Shown here: piece by piece, positions 38,979-50,774 of the stretch
Layout: the number at the start of each line of letters is the position of its first letter
Position numbering within the stretch: the first letter of the stretch is position 1
The notes under the pieces: generated by a model
The model's input: the letters and a program-made list of their open reading frames with translations, nothing else
What the model was told of the DNA's origin: nothing
Databases searched by the model: none
Position numbers and translations under genes: made by a program
Assembly (NCBI GenBank): GCA_016935665.1
Contig: JAFGQN010000051.1
Location: forward strand, 1 to 64,000
Source of the DNA: Deltaproteobacteria bacterium
GTDB lineage: Bacteria > Myxococcota_A > Polyangia > JAAYKL01
Length of the DNA: 64,000 nt
Reading direction: 5' to 3'

Positions 38979-39446
38979 GTGTTGTCCTTGTTGGGTTCGC
39001 AAATGGTCATTGTGGGGACAGTCTTACGCACATTGGCCTGGACAATCAAGGTTCAACAGGCATGTTTGCGACAATTTGAGATTGCCAAAATTAATAATTG
39101 ACGCCTGTAGCCGTAAATGAAAGAAAGGCCAATCGGGACGAAAACGATCCCCAATACGCGCCCACACTGATTTGGGAAGGTGCCTCCATTGTTAGCAGAT
39201 GTCGGGCTTGTGCCATTGGAAGTTTTATTGGAAAGGCAATTTCCATGAGCGAAAGCGGCCACTTTGAACACCGTGGAAATGCTGTCGCGCCATTTTTTTC
39301 TTTTTTTTCATTCCAAAAGGGGGGATTCCAGTTTTTAATAGGGTCAATACGGAATTGTATCTGGTGTTCGGTTTTCGTATCGATTTTTTGGGCCACTGAC
39401 TGTTTTTGATATTTTTTGGGATCTTCGGTAGTTGAGGGATTTGGTT
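38979..39446. other. Intergenic region without a supported gene
   Basis: This divergent gap between maf and the zinc-ribbon protein contains a T-rich tract near 39300 and short ORFs on both strands without family features. The promoters of both neighbours should lie here; none could be identified with confidence. Confidence 0.4.
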
Positions 39447-41801
39447 ATGAGCAACACAAAGGTATGCCCCGCCTGTCATAAGGAATTGCCTGTTCTGGCA
39501 GTGCGCTGCAAATATTGCGGTTTTAAGCAACCGTTGGCGAGAGACGACAACGATGACGCTGAAAACGAAGGGGTACCCATATCCAATCTGGCGACCGGGC
39601 GCCGCAGCAGTGTTGGGGCCGCCAGACCCATTAGTACTATTCCTCCGGCCAAAAATCCCTCGCTGGGTCCACAGAAACGTCGGCAAATCATCAGTGCGGC
39701 GCCTTCTTCTGAACGACGCCTGACGAGTATTAAGGATAAGGCCACCTCGATGCCGCCGGATGCTACGACGGGAAAAAACCGGAAAAAGACACAAAGCATC
39801 CATACCGGACTAAAATCATTAGCCAAAGATGCCCTGGATTCAACCAAAGCCAGAGATGGGGCCCGAAAAGATAAAAAGAACCTGTTTTCCTCACCGGATA
39901 TTGCGCCTGAAAAGAAAGTGGGTTCAGCCTTTGGGGATTCGTCGGGGAAATTCGGAGACGGGGGACGCAAATCAACCGTATTGATGCACGCCCCCAAATT
40001 TGCCGGAGCAAAATCAAAAAAGGCCGAACCGGTTGACACTGCAAAACGCTCAGGGGACGCGGCGGCGTCCATGGGGGACAAGCCGGATACATCCTCCGCA
40101 AAAGTCAGCGGGACAAGCATTCCCGAGCAACTTGCCGTAAAGTCCCAGGCGGCGGAGCCTTCAATACGGATTTTATCTTCGGATTTGAAAAAAGGCAGCG
40201 AAGACAGCCTTATTTTATCACTGGACGACGATTCTCAACTGGTGCTGCTCAACGATGGCGACGAGGGGACCGAGGAATTGGATTTGGACAATCTTCCTCC
40301 GGATGACGGGATAAACGAGCCCGATGTGGAGGGTGACGCAGAGGATAGCGTCACAGTATCGAAAGACGATGGGAAACCGCCAGTATCTAAAGCGCAGCAC
40401 GCCTCAATCGGGTCTGGTATCCGAAGGCTTTTTGCCGGTTCTGTTCCGGCCTTGAAACGCGTTCTGATGTCGCTGGCGTCAATTTGGGGAAGATTTCAGT
40501 CGATTGTGCGCAAGGCGCCACTGAAAGTCTGGCTGATTATCGGTAGTGTAACGCTTGTCGGCGGTGTGAGTGCGATGCTCGTCAACAGCTGCGACGCGCC
40601 AAAGCAGGCAGGCCCCTCGTCAGATGCTCAAATAGCGAAATCGGAAGCGGATGATGCCAAAGGAGCGGTCGGTGCGAATCAGAATCGAAAACCGAAAGAA
40701 ATGGCGCCAGCGCAGACAAAAATGACTCAATCGAATCGAAAATGCGGCCTTTTGGACAGTTATGGGCCATTTTTATGGAAATCCGATATTAATAAATTGC
40801 TGAAACAATCGAACACAACCGCCATTTGTCAGCTGATGGGTCATTCTGTACAAGCGATGAAAAAATTAATTGCGGGCAGGGAAGGGGCATTTTATCCCGG
40901 TGTCGATGGATTGCCGGAGAGCAGCGCACTGTTTTTTGTGCCGGATGACGAAGTAGACGCCGGTGGCCGTGGTATTGAGTTGATTTTTTATCGAGATCAG
41001 TTGTTTAGAATACTTCTCGACTATGGGGCGGATCGCAATATTGAGTTCGAATTTAATATTTTAGAGGAAAGCCTGGACGTGGAAACAGTACGGGAGACCG
41101 ATGGGGACGTCGCTGTTTCGCGGATTGACGATGGTGATTTGCGCACGGAGCTGGTGACGATTCGAGATGGTCAGCTAAACCGACAATTGACATTTACAGA
41201 CTTGAAAATCCAGGTCGCTCTAAAGGAACGTGTGGCGTCATTGCGAAAAGCCCAACAGCTGGCCGAAAAAGGAGAGCGACTTTTGGCGCAAAAGCAGTTT
41301 GGCAGTGCAGTGGATGCGTTCCAACTGGCCATTGAGGCCAACGATGCATTTGGCAGAGCACTTGCCGGCAGAGCCATGGCGCAGGCGTTTATGGAAGACT
41401 ACACGGGCGCCCAGGCGGCGGCGGAGCGGGTGACCGAGGTGACGAAGGATACGCGGGTTATCGCACAGGCAAGGCAGGTTCTTTCCATTGTGGCGTTGCG
41501 AAATGGCGATGTGAAAAGTGCGATATCCCATTTGGCAAAGGCGGTGGAACTGGACCCGCAAAACAGCGACGCGGTTCGCTCCCAAAAAGAATTGGAGACC
41601 GGTAAATATTCAACGGAACGGGTGGCCCTGACTGCGGCCAGAATGTCGTGTGCGGGCAAATTGGGCGCTACTCCGGCTGGACTGCTCGCGGTGGGCAACT
41701 TCCCGGATACACAAACATTTTTTGATGCAATGAAAGCGGCAAAACAGGACATTCTGTTTGAACGGTTGAAGCGCGGCTGGGTTTCCAGAGAGTGTCGTTG
41801 A
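39447..41801 (+). CDS. Zinc-ribbon, transmembrane, TPR protein
   Basis: A 784-aa protein. A zinc ribbon (Cys7, Cys10, Cys21, Cys24 in KVCPACHK and RCKYCGFK) starts the chain. About 300 residues of low-complexity Ser/Lys/Asp follow, then one membrane helix (about 358-376), a globular segment of unknown type (about 430-580) and TPR-like helices to the end (about 591-750; AFQLAIEANDAFGRALAGRA). Zinc-ribbon plus TPR proteins are typical of Myxococcota. The ribbon should be cytosolic and the TPRs periplasmic. The ATG with GAGGGA upstream was chosen. The role is unknown; a signalling or assembly scaffold is likely. Confidence 0.8.
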   Translation: MSNTKVCPACHKELPVLAVRCKYCGFKQPLARDDNDDAENEGVPISNLATGRRSSVGAARPISTIPPAKNPSLGPQKRRQIISAAPSSERRLTSIKDKATSMPPDATTGKNRKKTQSIHTGLKSLAKDALDSTKARDGARKDKKNLFSSPDIAPEKKVGSAFGDSSGKFGDGGRKSTVLMHAPKFAGAKSKKAEPVDTAKRSGDAAASMGDKPDTSSAKVSGTSIPEQLAVKSQAAEPSIRILSSDLKKGSEDSLILSLDDDSQLVLLNDGDEGTEELDLDNLPPDDGINEPDVEGDAEDSVTVSKDDGKPPVSKAQHASIGSGIRRLFAGSVPALKRVLMSLASIWGRFQSIVRKAPLKVWLIIGSVTLVGGVSAMLVNSCDAPKQAGPSSDAQIAKSEADDAKGAVGANQNRKPKEMAPAQTKMTQSNRKCGLLDSYGPFLWKSDINKLLKQSNTTAICQLMGHSVQAMKKLIAGREGAFYPGVDGLPESSALFFVPDDEVDAGGRGIELIFYRDQLFRILLDYGADRNIEFEFNILEESLDVETVRETDGDVAVSRIDDGDLRTELVTIRDGQLNRQLTFTDLKIQVALKERVASLRKAQQLAEKGERLLAQKQFGSAVDAFQLAIEANDAFGRALAGRAMAQAFMEDYTGAQAAAERVTEVTKDTRVIAQARQVLSIVALRNGDVKSAISHLAKAVELDPQNSDAVRSQKELETGKYSTERVALTAARMSCAGKLGATPAGLLAVGNFPDTQTFFDAMKAAKQDILFERLKRGWVSRECR

Positions 41802-41831: not shown

Positions 41832-42560
41832 ATGAGAAGCAACTCCATCATCCAGGCGTGGCCAATGACGAAGGTCGTCAAATACCTCATGATAATCAAT
41901 GCAGGGTTGTGGCTGCTGACGGTGTTGGCCGGTCACTTTCAAAATTGGGTTGTGTATGAGGAGATGGCGCTGACGCCGGCAAAGGTGTTTCCAGGATTTC
42001 ATGTATGGGAGTTATTTACATACATGTGGTTTCACTCTCTGACCGATTATTACCACATTCTTTTTAATATGCTGTTCCTGTGGATGTTCGGTGGGACGCT
42101 GGAACAGAGTTGGGGCAGTCGGGCATTTTTGAAATTTTATCTGATTTGCGGTACTGGAGCGGGCCTGGTGGTGTTTGTTATAGGCATTCTTTTTTATCCA
42201 ACAGTTCCGACAGTTGGCGCATCTGGCGCCATTTACGGATTGGTGGCCGCGTGGGCAATCGCATTCCCGGATAGAATGGTATATCTGTTCGGCATTTTCC
42301 CTATCCGGGGACGATACTTTGCGTTGATTCCCATTGGTTTTGCGGTTCTTGATTTTATTGTGGGCGGCAGTGGCATCAGTCACGCAGCGCATCTGGGCGG
42401 ATTGGCCATTGGCGCCATAATGGTGACTGGTCTGTGGAGACCTTCCAGAATGCGCAATCGCCTGAGATATCTTTACTTGAAACGAAAATTGAAGGTAATT
42501 GATGGAGAACAGTATCGGCGGCGTAAGAATCCGCCTGGGAGCGGCGGCTATTGGAATTGA
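41832..42560 (+). CDS. Rhomboid intramembrane serine protease
   Basis: A 242-aa six-helix membrane protease cleaving transmembrane substrates. The catalytic dyad is Ser131 (GASGAIYG) and His187 (HAAHLGG), and the oxyanion region is HILFNMLFLWMFG. A basic C-terminal tail follows the last helix. It lies 30 bases after the zinc-ribbon/TPR gene, and a membrane-anchored neighbour could be a substrate, which is inference only. Confidence 0.93.
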   Translation: MRSNSIIQAWPMTKVVKYLMIINAGLWLLTVLAGHFQNWVVYEEMALTPAKVFPGFHVWELFTYMWFHSLTDYYHILFNMLFLWMFGGTLEQSWGSRAFLKFYLICGTGAGLVVFVIGILFYPTVPTVGASGAIYGLVAAWAIAFPDRMVYLFGIFPIRGRYFALIPIGFAVLDFIVGGSGISHAAHLGGLAIGAIMVTGLWRPSRMRNRLRYLYLKRKLKVIDGEQYRRRKNPPGSGGYWN

Positions 42561-42854: not shown

Positions 42855-43403
42855 ATGTTTGGAAAAGCAATTTTGGGTTTATCGATCGTAACAATGGTGT
42901 TTGCGTTGAGTGCATGTGGGGACAAGGAACCGGAGCCGGTCGCGCCTGCGGAACCGCCTCCAGCACCTGTCCCCGTGGCAGAACCAGTGGAAACAGATAC
43001 GGTTGATACCGAAACAGCGACAGAGCCCGAACTACCCCCGGTTGAGGAACCTGCAGATACCGGACAGGCGGGTGGCGGTATCTCGAAAGCGAGTCTGATT
43101 GGCAACTACAAATGCAGTGTAACCGGAGATTTTCCCGTTACCCCTCCGCCCGCGACCTGTAAAATTTACGAAGGGTCTGGTGGAAGTTTGAAAATTGGAC
43201 CAATTGGAGGTACTGGGATTAATGGAACGGTAGCGATTAAGGGGTCGCGCCTGAAGGTATCCGGGGCTTTTAATATTGGGATTGGGGAACTCAAGATAAA
43301 TGCCAACCTGGCCAAACGCAGTGCCAAACTGTACAAAGGCGCGGGAACTGGTTCCTTTGCCGGCGCTTCCGTAAAATACACGTTGACTCTAAAGAAAATG
43401 TAG
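42855..43403 (+). CDS. Small Pro/Glu-rich lipoprotein
   Basis: A 182-aa lipoprotein with lipobox LSAC (Cys21) and GGGAGG eight bases before the ATG. A Pro/Glu/Thr linker (about 25-75) precedes a Gly-rich beta domain with one Cys pair (NYKCSVTGD, ATCKIYEG). The domain repeats a G-x-G pattern (GPIGGTGINGTVAIKG) compatible with a small beta-barrel or sandwich. No family is recognised. It precedes the PilZ-PEGA gene by 49 bases. Confidence 0.75.
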   Translation: MFGKAILGLSIVTMVFALSACGDKEPEPVAPAEPPPAPVPVAEPVETDTVDTETATEPELPPVEEPADTGQAGGGISKASLIGNYKCSVTGDFPVTPPPATCKIYEGSGGSLKIGPIGGTGINGTVAIKGSRLKVSGAFNIGIGELKINANLAKRSAKLYKGAGTGSFAGASVKYTLTLKKM

Positions 43404-43452: not shown

Positions 43453-45033
43453 ATGAGTAACGACGAACGACGCGAAAAACGAGTTCAAGCGTCATTGAAG
43501 GTGCGATACAAGAGCGCCACGGTGACTGATTTTATTGAGAAACACAGTCACGACATTAGCCCTGGCGGGGTGTTCATTCGCTCTCAGAAGCCTTTGTCCA
43601 AAGGATCACTGCTGAAAATCGATTTTCGGCTGGAGGATGATACTGCGGTCATTCAAGGCGTGGGCCGCGTCGTTTGGACGCGGGAAGATTCCCTTGAAGG
43701 CAAACCTGCCGGGATGGGAATTAAGTTCATCCGACTGGATGAGGATTCCAGGGACAATATTCTCAAAATTATCACCATGCAGCGCTCGGGCCGTGCCATC
43801 ACACGGGAGTCCGTGTTCGGCGAAGGCGAAGACATAGACGGGTTGGATGCCACCGTACCTGACGGAAAATCCGTTAGAGACAGTATTATTCCCTCCGTGG
43901 AAAATATGGATGACGCCGACATCTATGAAGACGGTATTGCCGATGAAGACATGGATGATGCCACCGCCTCTGCCACCAAAGAAGAAGTTCCGCCATCGAA
44001 ACCGGTGCCGGCGTTTGAAGATTTGGATCATACTCAACCCTCGCAGAGGATTAGCAGAGAAGATCTTAAGGCAAAGAAGCGCGACGGCGAGCGGTCAGCG
44101 GTGGGTTATCCAACCGAAGAGGAGAAGGGGAGCAACTGGGGGATAATCCTGGTGGTGCTGCTGGTTGTGGCGGGCGCCATTGCGTTTATTTTGACTCGGG
44201 AGCCGGAGCGGGAACGGGTCGTCGTGGATTCTGACGGAGCATCTGCGGTAACTCCCGATGCGTCGGAGGATGCCGTCAAAGATGACGCGTCAGCAAAAGA
44301 GGAAACCGCACCCGCCGCCAATGACGTGTCTGAAACAGTCGTCGATGAGGACACCCAGGCGATGACTGAAACTGATTCGACAGCAGGTACGGATTCCGAT
44401 ACGGCAGCGGATTCAGATACATCCATGGACAGCGATTCCTCAATGGATTCGGCACCGGATACCGCATCAGAGGACATAACCACTGACGCAGGCGATAACG
44501 CATCGGCTGAACTGGCGAGTTCTTCCGGCGATTTGTCGGGCCCCATATCCATTCTGGTGAGTGAACGGGATGCCATTGTTTATGTCGATGGCGTTGCACA
44601 GGAAAACGAGCGCCCTCTCAAACTGGCTGGACTGCCGGTTGGCGAGCACACTATTCGCGTTGATTTGTTTGCTTACAAACCGATTGAAGAAAAAATAGTC
44701 GCGGTCGCCGGCGAACCACTGGTGTTGTCGTATGCGCTGAAACGAGCGCGATTCGCAACTACAATTCGTGCCAATGTGGTAGGAGCGAGAATTATGCTTG
44801 GCGAAAAGCAGATTGGTCGTACCCCTATGCGCACGGTGAAACGTTTCAAAGATTCTTTCGAATATCGGATTGTTAAGCCCAAATTCAAGGACGTTGAGGG
44901 CGCTGTGACGCGGGACGATTGGGTATACAGCGGCGGAGTGTACACCTTGGAGATTAAGGCGAACCTGGAACCCGAGGAACCCGTGGCGAACACGACCGAA
45001 GACACCAGCGCCACAGCTGGCGGCGCCAATTAA
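43453..45033 (+). CDS. PilZ-transmembrane-PEGA protein
   Basis: A 526-aa protein. The N-terminal PilZ domain (1 to about 115) has both c-di-GMP motifs intact: RxxxR (RREKR) and DxSxxG (DISPGG). An acidic linker follows, then a single membrane helix (about 229-248), a long Ser/Asp/Thr linker (about 255-360) and two tandem PEGA-like domains (about 364-505: IVYVDGVAQ, LPVGEHTIRVDL, then RIMLGEKQIGRTP). With this order the PilZ end is cytosolic and the PEGA end periplasmic, so c-di-GMP binding could be passed to the envelope. GGAGGG precedes the ATG. Its stop is twelve bases before mfd. Confidence 0.88.
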   Translation: MSNDERREKRVQASLKVRYKSATVTDFIEKHSHDISPGGVFIRSQKPLSKGSLLKIDFRLEDDTAVIQGVGRVVWTREDSLEGKPAGMGIKFIRLDEDSRDNILKIITMQRSGRAITRESVFGEGEDIDGLDATVPDGKSVRDSIIPSVENMDDADIYEDGIADEDMDDATASATKEEVPPSKPVPAFEDLDHTQPSQRISREDLKAKKRDGERSAVGYPTEEEKGSNWGIILVVLLVVAGAIAFILTREPERERVVVDSDGASAVTPDASEDAVKDDASAKEETAPAANDVSETVVDEDTQAMTETDSTAGTDSDTAADSDTSMDSDSSMDSAPDTASEDITTDAGDNASAELASSSGDLSGPISILVSERDAIVYVDGVAQENERPLKLAGLPVGEHTIRVDLFAYKPIEEKIVAVAGEPLVLSYALKRARFATTIRANVVGARIMLGEKQIGRTPMRTVKRFKDSFEYRIVKPKFKDVEGAVTRDDWVYSGGVYTLEIKANLEPEEPVANTTEDTSATAGGAN

Positions 45034-45044
45034 TCTGAATCGTT

Positions 45045-48000
45045 TTGTCCCGATTGATTCCACAGGCAGGTTTTGGAATTCCCCTGCAAAAAATTGTTGA
45101 ACACTGGTGCAGCACCGGCAGTGTGGAGTTGTCGGGGATGCATGGGGGCGCTGGTGCGTATTTGCTGCATGCGCTGCAAAAGGCCGACGGTCGCCCTATG
45201 GTGGTGGTGGAAAACGATGCCCGGTCGGCGACGTTAATGGCGGAGAATCTGTCATTTTTCTGCAGTGCACAGAGTGCGGATGGAAAGGACGCGTCTGGCG
45301 ATATTCTGTTGTTTCCAGCATACGAGATGGGACCGTATGATGAGGTGGTGCCGGACCAGAGTGCGATACTGCGACGAACGGCGCTTCTTTTTCAGCTGTG
45401 CGTTTCTTCGCGTATTCCCTGGCGGTTTCTGGTGATTTCACAGGATGCATTGCAAAGACGGGTGGTGCCTAAACCCATTTTCGAATCCGCGGTTCGGCAA
45501 CTGGTGGTTGGGGAAATGATTCCCAGAGAGGTGTTGGTCGGGTTGCTGGAGAGAGGCGGATACCATCACACACCGGTGGTTGAAGACCCGGGCACATACA
45601 GTGTCCGCGGTTCTCTGGTGGATATTTTTGTGCCGTTTATGGACACACCGGTGCGAATGGATTTTTTTGGGGATGAAATCGAAGGCATTGATACGTTTGA
45701 TCCGGGTACTCAGGGACGCATTGCGCCCCTTGGCGATGTGTGGATTCATCCGGCACGGCAGGCGTTGCAGCCCGATACGGTGGATGCGATGGACGCGGTG
45801 AAGCGACGGCTTCGGGCCGTGTGTGACACTGTGAATTATCCCACCGCTCAGACGGAATTGCTCATAGAGGATATGCTGGAAGGCAGAACCTTTGTGGGGG
45901 CGCACGGTTTTTTGCCGGCGCTGTACCCGGCGCTGGATTCCCTGTTTGATTATCTGCCGGACGTGACGTTTTGCATTGGCAATCCAACCGGGCTGAAGAT
46001 GGGTTGGCATCGAATGCGGCTACAGGCGGATACGGATTTCGACAGAAAACAGTCCAATGGCGCTCCGGCGTTTTTACATAGCGCGTTTTATTGCGCGGAT
46101 GATGTGTTGTCGAAAGCGCTTTCCAAAACAGCGACGGTGCGATTTCACGCGCTCGAAGTAATGGGGACTCCCGATGGAGTGGGAGAGACATCACCTGCGG
46201 ATGGTACGGATTTCATGAATCCCGCCACCCTGGGATTTGCGGAATTTCGCCAGAAGCTCGAAGTGCAGGCGGCCAGAGAGGGATCTGTGGACGTTTTGGA
46301 TGCACTGGCAAATCAGCTGGAGACGTTCCGTGATGCAGGGTATGGCGTTGTGCTGGTGACACACTCCACAGGACAATCCCATCGACTGGTGGAAATGCTG
46401 TCCCATCGCGATGTGGAAGTCGCGCCCATATCCACACCCGCGCATCGGTCCGAAGGGGTGTATCTGATGGAGGGGGAGCTGGCCAGTGGATTTTTATGGC
46501 CCGCCGAGGGGCTGTGTTTTATTACCGAAGAAGAAATTTTTGGTAAAAGTGCCCTTCGCAAACGATCAAAATCCAAACCCAAAGAGGTGTTTTTTGACAT
46601 TACCAGTCTGAAACCCGGTGACCTGGTGGTGCATCGGGACCACGGCGTGGGGCGTTACGAGGGATTGGTGCACCAGGAAGTGCGCGATGTGGGGATGGAT
46701 TTTCTGCTCATCACCTATAAGGGGGACGACAAGTTATATTTGCCGGTCTATCGGCTGGGACAGATTCAAAAGTATCGCAGTGCGACCGATAAATTGACGA
46801 CTCTCGACAAACTGGGGGGCGTCAGCTTTACCAAAACCCGGGCGGCGGCGCGCAAACGGGCCATGCTGCTGGCGGCTAAACTTCTCGATGTGTATGCGCG
46901 CAAAGAGCTGACCACCCGCAAGCGCGTGGACCCCGTGGATGATTTGTACCTGGGTTTCGAATCGGCATTTCCGTTCGAGGAAACACCGGATCAATTGGCA
47001 GTTATTAACGAGGTCATGGTCGATTTGGAAAGCGCTCGCCCCATGGACCGGCTGTTGTGTGGCGATGTGGGCTTTGGGAAAACCGAAGTGGCACTCCGGG
47101 CGGCGTTTCGCCAGGTGAATTCCGGACGACAGGTGGCCGTGCTGGTGCCCACTACCGTGTTGGCGCAGCAGCACTATCTGAATTTTAAAAAGCGGTTCGA
47201 CCATTATCCGGTGCGGGTGGAAATGCTCAGCCGATTTCGCACGACGGGTCAAAATGCCAATGTGGTCATGGGGGTAAAAGAAGGTACGGTGGATATTGTG
47301 GTGGGGACGCATCGATTACTGTCTGGGGATGTGCATTTTAAAAACCTGGGATTGCTGGTTATCGATGAAGAACACCGCTTCGGGGTGGCGCACAAAGAGC
47401 GCATCCGGGCATTGCGTACCAGTGTGGACACACTTGCCATGACTGCCACGCCCATTCCGCGCACGCTGCATATGGCTTTTTCGAAATTGAGGGATTTGTC
47501 CATTATCAGCACCGCCCCGGTGAATCGCCTGCCCATCCGCACCATGATTTGTCACGACGACAGTACACTGATTCGGGAAGCCATTGAGCGGGAGCTGGCC
47601 CGAAACGGACAAGTGTATTTTGTGCACAATCGCGTTAAGGACATTGGCCAGGTGGCCGACCGCATCCAACGGCTGGCGCCCGAGGCGCGCGTGGGGGTGG
47701 GTCATGGTCAAATGAAGGAAGACGCGTTGGAACGGGTGATGCGCGACTTTATCGACGGTCGCTACGATGTGCTGGTGAGCACGGCCATTATTGAATCCGG
47801 ACTGGATATTCCAAGGGCCAATACCATTTTAATTGACCGGGCCGATACCTTTGGTTTGGCCCAGCTGTATCAGATTCGCGGTCGGGTGGGGCGCAGTGAT
47901 GTACAGGCGTTTGCGTATCTGATTGTGCCGCCTTTGGCCTTGCTCAAGGACGACGCCAAAGAACGCGTGGAAGCGATGACCACACATACCGCGCTGGGCA

Positions 48001-48605
48001 GCGGCTTTCAGGTGGCCACCATGGACCTTGAGATTCGCGGTGCGGGCAATCTGCTGGGAGCGGAACAGTCGGGGGATGTGGATGGCGTGGGTTTCGAAAT
48101 GTATATGGAGTTGCTGGAGGAAGCCACTGCGACCTTGAAGGGCGAGGATTTTGAGGTGGCGTTCGAACCGGAAATCAATCTGGAAACGCCGGGCTTTTTG
48201 CCGTCGGACTATGTGGCGGACGTGGGATTGCGGCTGCATTTTTACAAAGAACTGGCCACATCGCGCAGCGAGGAGGAGGTGAATCAGATTGCCGCGTCGC
48301 TGGTGGACCGATTCGGTTCGCTCCCGGACGAGGCCAAACAGCTGATTGACGGCATGGTGGCCAGAGCATTGTGTCGACAACTGGGAATACTGGGGCTGGA
48401 GACCACAAAAAAGAAAGCCACGCTGCACCTGGGTGCAAAGGCCAGTGTTCAACCCAATGTCGTGATGGCCCTGGTGCAGGCGCAGGAAGGAACGGTGCGG
48501 CTGACAAAGGACTTCAAAATCATTGCAATAAAGGTGTCTGACACGGAGACCATGACGCGTCGGGCATTGGGAGTACTAAGGCGGTTGCACACTTTCAAAC
48601 ACTGA
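45045..48605 (+). CDS. mfd: Transcription-repair coupling factor
   Basis: A 1186-aa ATP-dependent translocase that removes stalled RNA polymerase and recruits UvrA. The order is standard: a UvrB-like N-terminal part, the RNA-polymerase-interacting domain (LKPGDLVVHRDHGVGRYEGL at about 525), helicase motifs with Walker A GDVGFGKTE, DEEH (VIDEEHRFG) and TATPIPRTLHMA, the TRG-containing second RecA lobe, and the UvrA-binding C-terminal domain. The start codon is uncertain: the TTG used sits right after the PilZ-PEGA gene and lacks a clear ribosome site, but the sequence from it fits the family. Confidence 0.96.
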   Translation: MSRLIPQAGFGIPLQKIVEHWCSTGSVELSGMHGGAGAYLLHALQKADGRPMVVVENDARSATLMAENLSFFCSAQSADGKDASGDILLFPAYEMGPYDEVVPDQSAILRRTALLFQLCVSSRIPWRFLVISQDALQRRVVPKPIFESAVRQLVVGEMIPREVLVGLLERGGYHHTPVVEDPGTYSVRGSLVDIFVPFMDTPVRMDFFGDEIEGIDTFDPGTQGRIAPLGDVWIHPARQALQPDTVDAMDAVKRRLRAVCDTVNYPTAQTELLIEDMLEGRTFVGAHGFLPALYPALDSLFDYLPDVTFCIGNPTGLKMGWHRMRLQADTDFDRKQSNGAPAFLHSAFYCADDVLSKALSKTATVRFHALEVMGTPDGVGETSPADGTDFMNPATLGFAEFRQKLEVQAAREGSVDVLDALANQLETFRDAGYGVVLVTHSTGQSHRLVEMLSHRDVEVAPISTPAHRSEGVYLMEGELASGFLWPAEGLCFITEEEIFGKSALRKRSKSKPKEVFFDITSLKPGDLVVHRDHGVGRYEGLVHQEVRDVGMDFLLITYKGDDKLYLPVYRLGQIQKYRSATDKLTTLDKLGGVSFTKTRAAARKRAMLLAAKLLDVYARKELTTRKRVDPVDDLYLGFESAFPFEETPDQLAVINEVMVDLESARPMDRLLCGDVGFGKTEVALRAAFRQVNSGRQVAVLVPTTVLAQQHYLNFKKRFDHYPVRVEMLSRFRTTGQNANVVMGVKEGTVDIVVGTHRLLSGDVHFKNLGLLVIDEEHRFGVAHKERIRALRTSVDTLAMTATPIPRTLHMAFSKLRDLSIISTAPVNRLPIRTMICHDDSTLIREAIERELARNGQVYFVHNRVKDIGQVADRIQRLAPEARVGVGHGQMKEDALERVMRDFIDGRYDVLVSTAIIESGLDIPRANTILIDRADTFGLAQLYQIRGRVGRSDVQAFAYLIVPPLALLKDDAKERVEAMTTHTALGSGFQVATMDLEIRGAGNLLGAEQSGDVDGVGFEMYMELLEEATATLKGEDFEVAFEPEINLETPGFLPSDYVADVGLRLHFYKELATSRSEEEVNQIAASLVDRFGSLPDEAKQLIDGMVARALCRQLGILGLETTKKKATLHLGAKASVQPNVVMALVQAQEGTVRLTKDFKIIAIKVSDTETMTRRALGVLRRLHTFKH

Positions 48606-48647: not shown

Positions 48648-50774
48648 ATGACAACCTCGGCAAAGCCAATTGCGCCTTACATTACGCAGAATGTGAATCT
48701 TTTAAGCGGTGATGTGCCACAGAAGCGGCAGGAAATTCGCGCGTATTTTTTATCGACATTTGATTTGTACGAAACGTTGTTTGAATCGTTGCGCGACGAC
48801 ACGGTGTTTTACGCGCGCCCCCAGCCCCTTCGGCATCCTCTGATATTTTATTTTGGGCATACAGCGGTGTTCTTTGTAAACAAGCTGATGCTGGCCAAAC
48901 AGCTCACTGGGCGTGTGGACGAACGAATGGAATCCATTTTTGCCATTGGTGTGGATGAGATGAGCTGGGACGATTTGAATGACAAAAACTATGACTGGCC
49001 GTCTGTTGCCGATGTGCGCGCCTATCGACAAAAGGTGCGAAACACGGTGTTGGGCGTTATTGACAGGATGGATTTCACCATGCCGGTGGATTGGAAAAGT
49101 CCCATGTGGCCTGTAATGATGGGCATTGAACACGAGCGCATTCATCTGGAGACCAGTTCTGTGCTCATTCGACAGCTGGATATATCGAAAGTGCGGGAGC
49201 ATCCGCTGTTTCAACCGTGCCCCTTTGCCGGAGAGGCGCCGGAGAATGTACTTATTCCCGTTAAAGGCGGCCAGGTGGAACTGGGGAAATCCAGGTCGCA
49301 CCACTTGTACGGCTGGGACAACGAGTTTGGCCATGCCACGCTTTCGGTATCGGATTTCGAAGCATCCCGCTTTCTGGTGTCCAATCAGGAATATCTGCAG
49401 TTTATGGAGGCCGGCGGCTATACCACCGATGAATGGTGGGACGAGGAAGGACTGGCCTGGAAGCGATACCACAACGCGCAAATGCCCGAGTTCTGGAAAA
49501 AGGGCAAAGACGGGCTTGTGCTGCGGCTGATGACACGAGAAGTGCCACTGCCCCTGAACTGGCCGGTGGAAGTATGTTACCTGGAGGCCAAAGCGTTTTG
49601 CAACTGGAAGAGCAGCGTGTTGAATCGCCCGGTGCGCATGCCCGATGAAGGAGAGTACCGGCGGCTGTTACAAGTATGCTCTCTGGAAAAAGAACACTGC
49701 GATACGCCCATCGACGCCAACTGGAATCTGGAGCATTTTGCCGGTAGTATGCCGGTGGACACCTTCTTTCACGGCGATTTTTGCGACGTGGTAGGTAATG
49801 TGTGGCAGTGGAACGAGACGCCCATCTACGGCTTTGATGGATTCGAAGTGCATCCTCTTTATGACGATTTTTCCACGCCCACCTTTGACAACCGTCACGC
49901 GATCATCAAAGGGGGCTCCTGGATTTCCACCGGCAACGAAATTGCTCTGCACAGCCGTTATGCATTCCGGCGTCATTTTTATCAGCATTCCGGCTTTCGC
50001 TATGTGGTGTCGGATAAGCCGGTGAAAAAAGAATTCAGCACCTACGAAACCGATGCCGCTGTGGCCATGTATCTGGAGGCCCACTATGGCAGGTCGTATT
50101 TTGGGGTGCCCAATTTCGCCAAAACCATTGCGCAAATAGCGCTTCGTCAGGTCCCCGAAAATCGCCGTGGCAAGGCGCTGGATATCGGTTGTGCCACAGG
50201 GCGGCTATCGTTTGAACTGTCGCCGTATTTCGAACAGGTGGATGGGCTGGACTTTTCGGCCCGATTTATCCGCCAGGCCATCGCACTGGCAAAAGAGGGG
50301 CGCACCCGTTATGAACTGGTGACCGAAGGGGAGCTGGTGGAATACCGGGAATGTGCCCTCGCCGATTTGGGTGTAAACGTGCAAAGAGATCGCATCACCT
50401 TTATGCAGCAGGATGCGTGCAATATGAAACCGCAATACCGCGGCTACGATTTGGTGGTGGCAGCCAATCTGGTGGACCGCCTCACCGATCCCGTCCGATT
50501 TTTGTTAGAAATCGGACATCGCATGAATGACGGCGGTATTTTGGTTATTGCTTCTCCGTTTACGTGGATGACCGAGTTTACCGCAAAGGAAAAATGGCTG
50601 GGCGGATTTAAAAAAGATGGCGAACCGGTAACGGCATTGGATGGTCTTCATCACTGTTTGGACCAAAGGTTTGCTCTGGTGGCAGAGCCGTTGGATGTAC
50701 CCTTTGTCATTCGCGAAACGGCGCGAAAATTTCAGCACACCCTCTCGCAGGTGACCCTATGGAGAAAAAAGTGA
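48648..50774 (+). CDS. ovoA: 5-histidylcysteine sulfoxide synthase/methyltransferase
   Basis: A 708-aa bifunctional ovothiol enzyme. The N-terminal DinB-like part plus the FGE-type central domain form the mononuclear iron oxygenase that joins cysteine to histidine C5: the ligands are His162, His166 and Glu168 in EHERIHLE, with an additional conserved His71. The C-terminal Rossmann domain (about 490-708; ALDIGCATGRLSFELS) methylates 5-thiohistidine at N1 using SAM. The fusion distinguishes OvoA from the single-function EgtB of ergothioneine synthesis. GACAGGAGAG precedes the ATG. It overlaps the downstream PLP lyase by 16 bases. Confidence 0.93.
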   Translation: MTTSAKPIAPYITQNVNLLSGDVPQKRQEIRAYFLSTFDLYETLFESLRDDTVFYARPQPLRHPLIFYFGHTAVFFVNKLMLAKQLTGRVDERMESIFAIGVDEMSWDDLNDKNYDWPSVADVRAYRQKVRNTVLGVIDRMDFTMPVDWKSPMWPVMMGIEHERIHLETSSVLIRQLDISKVREHPLFQPCPFAGEAPENVLIPVKGGQVELGKSRSHHLYGWDNEFGHATLSVSDFEASRFLVSNQEYLQFMEAGGYTTDEWWDEEGLAWKRYHNAQMPEFWKKGKDGLVLRLMTREVPLPLNWPVEVCYLEAKAFCNWKSSVLNRPVRMPDEGEYRRLLQVCSLEKEHCDTPIDANWNLEHFAGSMPVDTFFHGDFCDVVGNVWQWNETPIYGFDGFEVHPLYDDFSTPTFDNRHAIIKGGSWISTGNEIALHSRYAFRRHFYQHSGFRYVVSDKPVKKEFSTYETDAAVAMYLEAHYGRSYFGVPNFAKTIAQIALRQVPENRRGKALDIGCATGRLSFELSPYFEQVDGLDFSARFIRQAIALAKEGRTRYELVTEGELVEYRECALADLGVNVQRDRITFMQQDACNMKPQYRGYDLVVAANLVDRLTDPVRFLLEIGHRMNDGGILVIASPFTWMTEFTAKEKWLGGFKKDGEPVTALDGLHHCLDQRFALVAEPLDVPFVIRETARKFQHTLSQVTLWRKK

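Follow-up and report, generated by a model that had tools for sequence, protein, structure and literature searches.

A predicted bitopic protein joining a PilZ domain to tandem PEGA domains recurs within a class of Myxococcota_A

Alg44, the alginate co-polymerase of Pseudomonas aeruginosa, has an N-terminal PilZ domain, a single transmembrane helix and a C-terminal periplasmic domain in one chain (PMC8461298). LapD reads c-di-GMP in the cytosol and has its output in the periplasm (PMC3032545). Among the 24 PilZ proteins of Myxococcus xanthus, 14 consist of PilZ only, and the others carry signalling or DnaK/DnaJ domains (PMC8316039); neither PEGA nor transmembrane is mentioned anywhere in the main text of that paper. 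In the literature searched, no description of PilZ and PEGA in one protein was found, and only Treponema annotation papers mention the two together, on separate proteins.

Here we analyse a protein encoded in a 64,000-nucleotide stretch of DNA from a Deltaproteobacteria bacterium (GTDB class Polyangia), referred to as the window. Its coding sequence (43453..45033, + strand, as are the features of the protein given below) was defined from the open reading frame, Pfam and NCBIfam matches and an AlphaFold model built from 27 homologs; it encodes 526 aa and starts with ATG, with a GGAGG site immediately 5'. The PilZ domain, of the TIGR02266 subtype (residues 5-107, 43465..43773), was matched by Pfam PF07238 (E 1.3e-14, 54.8 bits against a cut-off of 22.5) and NCBIfam TIGR02266 (E 1.8e-23, 82.5 bits against a cut-off of 68.7), in addition to a genome match. 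It contains the RxxxR motif (R6-R10, 43468..43482) and the DxSxxG motif (D34-G39, 43552..43569). An acidic linker of about 116 aa follows (residues 113-228, 43789..44136), disordered by composition, mostly with pLDDT <50 and absent from the initial annotation. It leads to a single transmembrane helix (residues 229-248, 44137..44196), which is strongly hydrophobic (mean KD 2.98) and helical in the model. Beyond the helix lies a predicted extracytoplasmic linker (residues 249-360, 44197..44532; mostly pLDDT 40-60) containing 22 Asp, 19 Ala, 18 Ser and 13 Thr in 112 residues, followed by two PEGA domains, residues 366-432 (44548..44748) and 437-503 (44761..44961). Pfam PF08308 matched the PEGA region in two stretches (E 8.4e-12, 45.3 bits against a cut-off of 20.8); the second match ends at 44913, and the model strands reach residue 503.

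In the AlphaFold model, most of the PilZ domain has pLDDT 83-95, the helix about 82-89 and both PEGA domains mostly >95, while the two helix-flanking linkers, about 110 aa each, are of low confidence (pLDDT mostly <60). No solved structure was matched by sequence at E <0.01. The initial annotation had described PilZ and PEGA in one transmembrane chain, with both c-di-GMP motifs intact and with a Ser/Asp/Thr linker and two PEGA-like domains beyond the helix, and all of these elements were recovered here. The PilZ-TM-PEGA layout is far beyond chance.

A Pfam scan of the protein returned no HlyD-like, HAMP, GGDEF or EAL domain. Unlike Alg44, which has a membrane-fusion (HlyD-like) domain and works with Alg8 in the alginate operon, the window protein has tandem PEGA domains and long disordered linkers, and lies in a housekeeping (mfd) neighbourhood with no adjacent polysaccharide synthase. 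It is not an Alg44, and at most works like one. LapD binds c-di-GMP by an EAL domain and relays by HAMP, whereas the window protein has a PilZ domain, a single helix and no HAMP. Its PilZ domain belongs to the same TIGR02266 subfamily as myxobacterial PilZ proteins. Ser/Thr kinases with periplasmic PEGA domains (e.g. L251 and L257) have the same order of a cytosolic signalling domain, one helix and PEGA beyond, and end in DNPY as the PilZ relatives do, but carry a kinase where the window protein has PilZ. The PilZ-TM-periplasmic kind of protein is already known from Alg44; what is new here is the PEGA output.

The 8.2-Mb draft genome gave 22 PilZ and 30 PEGA matches, and the window ORF was the only one on both lists. 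A match to the protein was found in 58 of 59 relatives, the weaker cases covering the PilZ part only. Pfam detected PilZ in 25 members of a first homolog set (n = 27; the other two sequences are fragments from the C-terminal end) and PEGA in 21; in a second set from a phylum-wide profile scan (n = 24), PilZ was detected in 24 and PEGA in 13. Six candidates were scored per genome in that scan. Among the matches listed, all full-length matches fell within the window's own class; the full PilZ-TM-PEGA layout was not seen in the 150 genomes sampled from other classes of the phylum, whose listed matches cover either PilZ or PEGA alone. A survey of this architecture had been proposed in the initial annotation, and the layout indeed recurs across the class, in several of its families. 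The PilZ-TM-PEGA protein is not a one-off fusion. PEGA is missing in family f11 and in genome G008, where PilZ and the helix are retained, which presents PEGA as a module on a PilZ-TM chassis.

In same-family orthologs, the gene lies upstream of mfd wherever contigs reach that far, and in many family loci it lies downstream of rhomboid and lipoprotein genes, in the order seen in the window. There, these neighbours encode a rhomboid-family intramembrane protease (41832..42560, +; PF01694, E 5e-28; GASG and HAAHLGG motifs read by eye), a lipoprotein-like protein (42855..43403, +; signal and lipobox read from the sequence) and the transcription-repair coupling factor Mfd (45045..48605, +; TRCF and CarD_TRCF_RID domains). 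Operon partners were considered as a functional clue and set aside, since mfd, rhomboid and lipoprotein genes flank the gene only in its own family; in other families, folK-, accC- or kinase-like genes (annotated by eye) flank the PilZ gene. With neighbours that differ between families, no function follows from the neighbourhood. Further out in the window, positions 39432-41801 encode a zinc-ribbon-like protein that has a single hydrophobic stretch, carries TPR repeats at its C-terminus and is a neighbour kept in several family loci. The product of 48648-50774, judged by eye, resembles an OvoA-like (ovothiol-type) sulfoxide synthase with a methyltransferase fused to it.

Residues R6, R10, D34, S36, G38 and G39 were all invariant in alignment A2. 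In alignment A4, comprising 24 further homologs with a mean column identity of ~24%, R6, R10, S36, G38 and G39 were again invariant, and D34 was >90% conserved. As judged from these alignments, the c-di-GMP motifs are under purifying selection. The same genomes also encode a group of PilZ paralogs with a recognisable PilZ domain but no RxxxR, and mostly with NxS in place of DxS. The constancy of the motifs amid divergence, together with their loss in paralogs, is the best evidence here that c-di-GMP probably matters to this protein. A second long PilZ family was observed (L092-L106; the own-genome copy, G000:C97, is cut by a contig end), with no c-di-GMP motifs, no helix detected, long charged repeats and a basic-hydrophobic C-terminus (GFFGKLFGK-like).

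Analysis of the charges flanking the helix revealed that Lys and Arg are commoner before it than after it in 15 of 24 homologs and rarer in 5 (p = 0.012). By the positive-inside rule, an N-in/C-out orientation, with PilZ inside and PEGA outside, is likely across these homologs. The initial annotation had given the same sidedness, which is favoured by the homolog charge bias and is ambiguous from the window protein alone (2 Lys/Arg before the helix and 3 after). In f11 loci (L091, L233, L243 and others), the cytosolic linker contains a short conserved segment resembling PPPEDRTVMKQAAELLxDALREAGGS, which may be a helical docking site. A conserved phosphothreonine (FHA-type) motif in this linker was also considered, and was rejected because it occurred in 8 of 20 homologs compared with 6.1 in shuffles (p = 0.24).

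Most relatives have a Pro-rich tail past the PEGA domains that ends in [D/E]NP[Y/F]-COOH, and the PEGA-less f11 members are also tagged, ending in SDNPY. The tag was counted by DNA pattern, as [DE][DE]NP[YF]-stop, DNP[YF]-stop or DNP[YF]-TGA. The [DE][DE]NP[YF]-stop pattern gave 1-3 matches in 12 of 14 family genomes, with control matches almost nil; besides PilZ proteins, the matches included membrane-anchored PP2C phosphatases, small membrane proteins and one SecG. SecG was rejected as a tag sharer, since among the SecG tails read only that of G005 carries it, probably through chance or convergence. The DNP[YF]-stop pattern was counted in seven genomes drawn from three other families, where 14 matches had a true stop: six PilZ proteins, five Ser/Thr kinases in which a helix is followed by PEGA or a disordered part, two other single-helix proteins and one likely spurious frame. 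In those genomes, DPN[YF]-stop, a control matched for composition, had a single match with a true stop. Phylum-wide, DNP[YF]-TGA was found in 19 of 39 genomes of the class and in 18 of 150 others (Fisher p = 2e-6), a value to be read as indicative, since the genomes are related; the PilZ gene itself gives part of the signal. The PP2C phosphatase of the window's genome (G000:C117; L202:7433-9220) is membrane-anchored and ends in EENPY; its gene adjoins one for a zinc-ribbon Ser/Thr kinase and one, annotated by eye, for an FHA/GAF/cyclase-like protein. In genus g2 of the family, a small single-helix protein with no domain assigned ends in LDDNPY (L126, L136 and L140).

The final residue of the tag, Tyr or Phe, agreed between the PilZ and PP2C proteins in all 11 family genomes compared; in one of them the PP2C tail was assigned only from a contig end. 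A reading of this concordance as repeated switches was rejected: in a FastTree phylogeny the Phe genomes form one clade, within which the change occurred in both proteins, and the agreement therefore counts as one joint switch. In G008, the tag is absent from both the PilZ and the PP2C protein. The C-terminal end of the window protein (residues 505-526, 44965..45030) is without the Pro-rich tail or [DE]NP[YF] end in alignment A2, and the same holds in the sister genome G001; in both genomes the tag was lost from the PilZ protein and kept on PP2C. An assembly error or frameshift was dismissed as the cause, because G001 also lacks the tail and no tag codons occur in the DNA that separates PEGA 2 from mfd.

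No mention of a shared tag was found in the open-access literature, to which the search was confined. The pattern of tagged proteins suggests one shared periplasmic receptor as the simplest reading. Taken further, [D/E]NP[Y/F]-COOH in this class could be an address tag on unrelated single-pass signalling proteins, read by one periplasmic or cell-wall receptor that would bring second-messenger signalling and phospho-signalling together at a single site in the envelope. The carriers would be PilZ receptors with or without PEGA, PP2C phosphatases and Ser/Thr kinases, with the window protein a member whose tag has been lost. We offer this wider proposal tentatively, at slightly less than even odds.

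As a whole, the protein is best read as a bitopic inner-membrane c-di-GMP receptor acting as a tether, to which we assign a probability of about 0.6. On this reading, the PilZ domain would lie in the cytosol and bind c-di-GMP, and the PEGA domains, joined in relatives by the C-terminal peptide, would anchor the chain to a partner in the periplasm or cell wall. Binding of c-di-GMP may change which cytosolic partner is recruited, or the oligomeric state of PilZ, and this change could in turn cluster the periplasmic domains. Its likeliest role is to keep a c-di-GMP-reading domain at whichever envelope site the periplasmic part determines. The loss of PEGA in f11 and G008, with the DNPY end kept in f11, is more readily explained by a modular tether than by a fixed signal relay. 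Counting against this reading, the window protein has lost the C-terminal tag, so that the tag anchor, at least, is not essential in this species.

The initial annotation had proposed instead that the signal is carried directly to the periplasm, without a partner protein. Such inside-out signalling, in which PilZ binding alters the state of PEGA via the helix within one (dimeric) chain, would resemble LapD and Alg44; it draws on the LapD precedent (PMC3032545), on the linear PilZ-TM-periplasmic plan shared with Alg44 (PMC8461298) and on the conserved c-di-GMP motifs. However, disordered linkers of ~110 residues lie on either side of one helix, there is no HAMP or coiled coil, and the cytosolic linker of homologs can be as short as 111 aa or as long as 359 aa. 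With linkers this long and disordered, a conformational change in PilZ could not easily cross the helix, and allosteric relay is not to be expected. This part of the initial annotation is not supported, and we regard direct relay as quite improbable. From the predicted structure, tethering, clustering or recruitment appears more likely than direct relay, and would need partners.

The PilZ domain could also be a c-di-GMP-independent protein-protein module, like type IV pilus PilZ or PlpA, in which case the protein would constitutively connect the cytosol to the envelope as a structural element. The closest solved folds to the PilZ model include the Xanthomonas type IV pilus PilZ (XC1028/XAC1133, Z ~8), and XC1028 shows only trivial c-di-GMP binding; c-di-GMP-bound PilZ folds score slightly lower (4xrn, Z 7.0, and Alg44 4rt1). 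PlpA has the ligand residues, yet was reported not to bind c-di-GMP (PMC8316039), and intact motifs therefore do not guarantee binding. The motif-less PilZ paralogs in the same genomes are consistent with such a module as well. Near-invariance of the ligand residues over deep divergence is nevertheless hard to explain without a ligand, which makes a c-di-GMP-independent role unlikely. Regulated proteolysis, with the adjacent rhomboid protease cutting the helix and freeing the PEGA ectodomain, would fit with many family loci having a rhomboid gene two positions upstream and with an Ala/Gly-rich helix (VVAGAIAF). Against this, no rhomboid gene was found in the L079, L081 and L085 loci, the one nearby in L082/L083 is on the opposite strand, and neighbours differ in other families; we consider this explanation highly improbable.

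PEGA domains are widespread, yet the term occurs in only 11 papers of the literature searched. A conserved c-di-GMP receptor with PEGA domains would help to find what these domains bind. If the shared tag is real, it would tie kinases, phosphatases and c-di-GMP receptors to a single receptor in the envelope.
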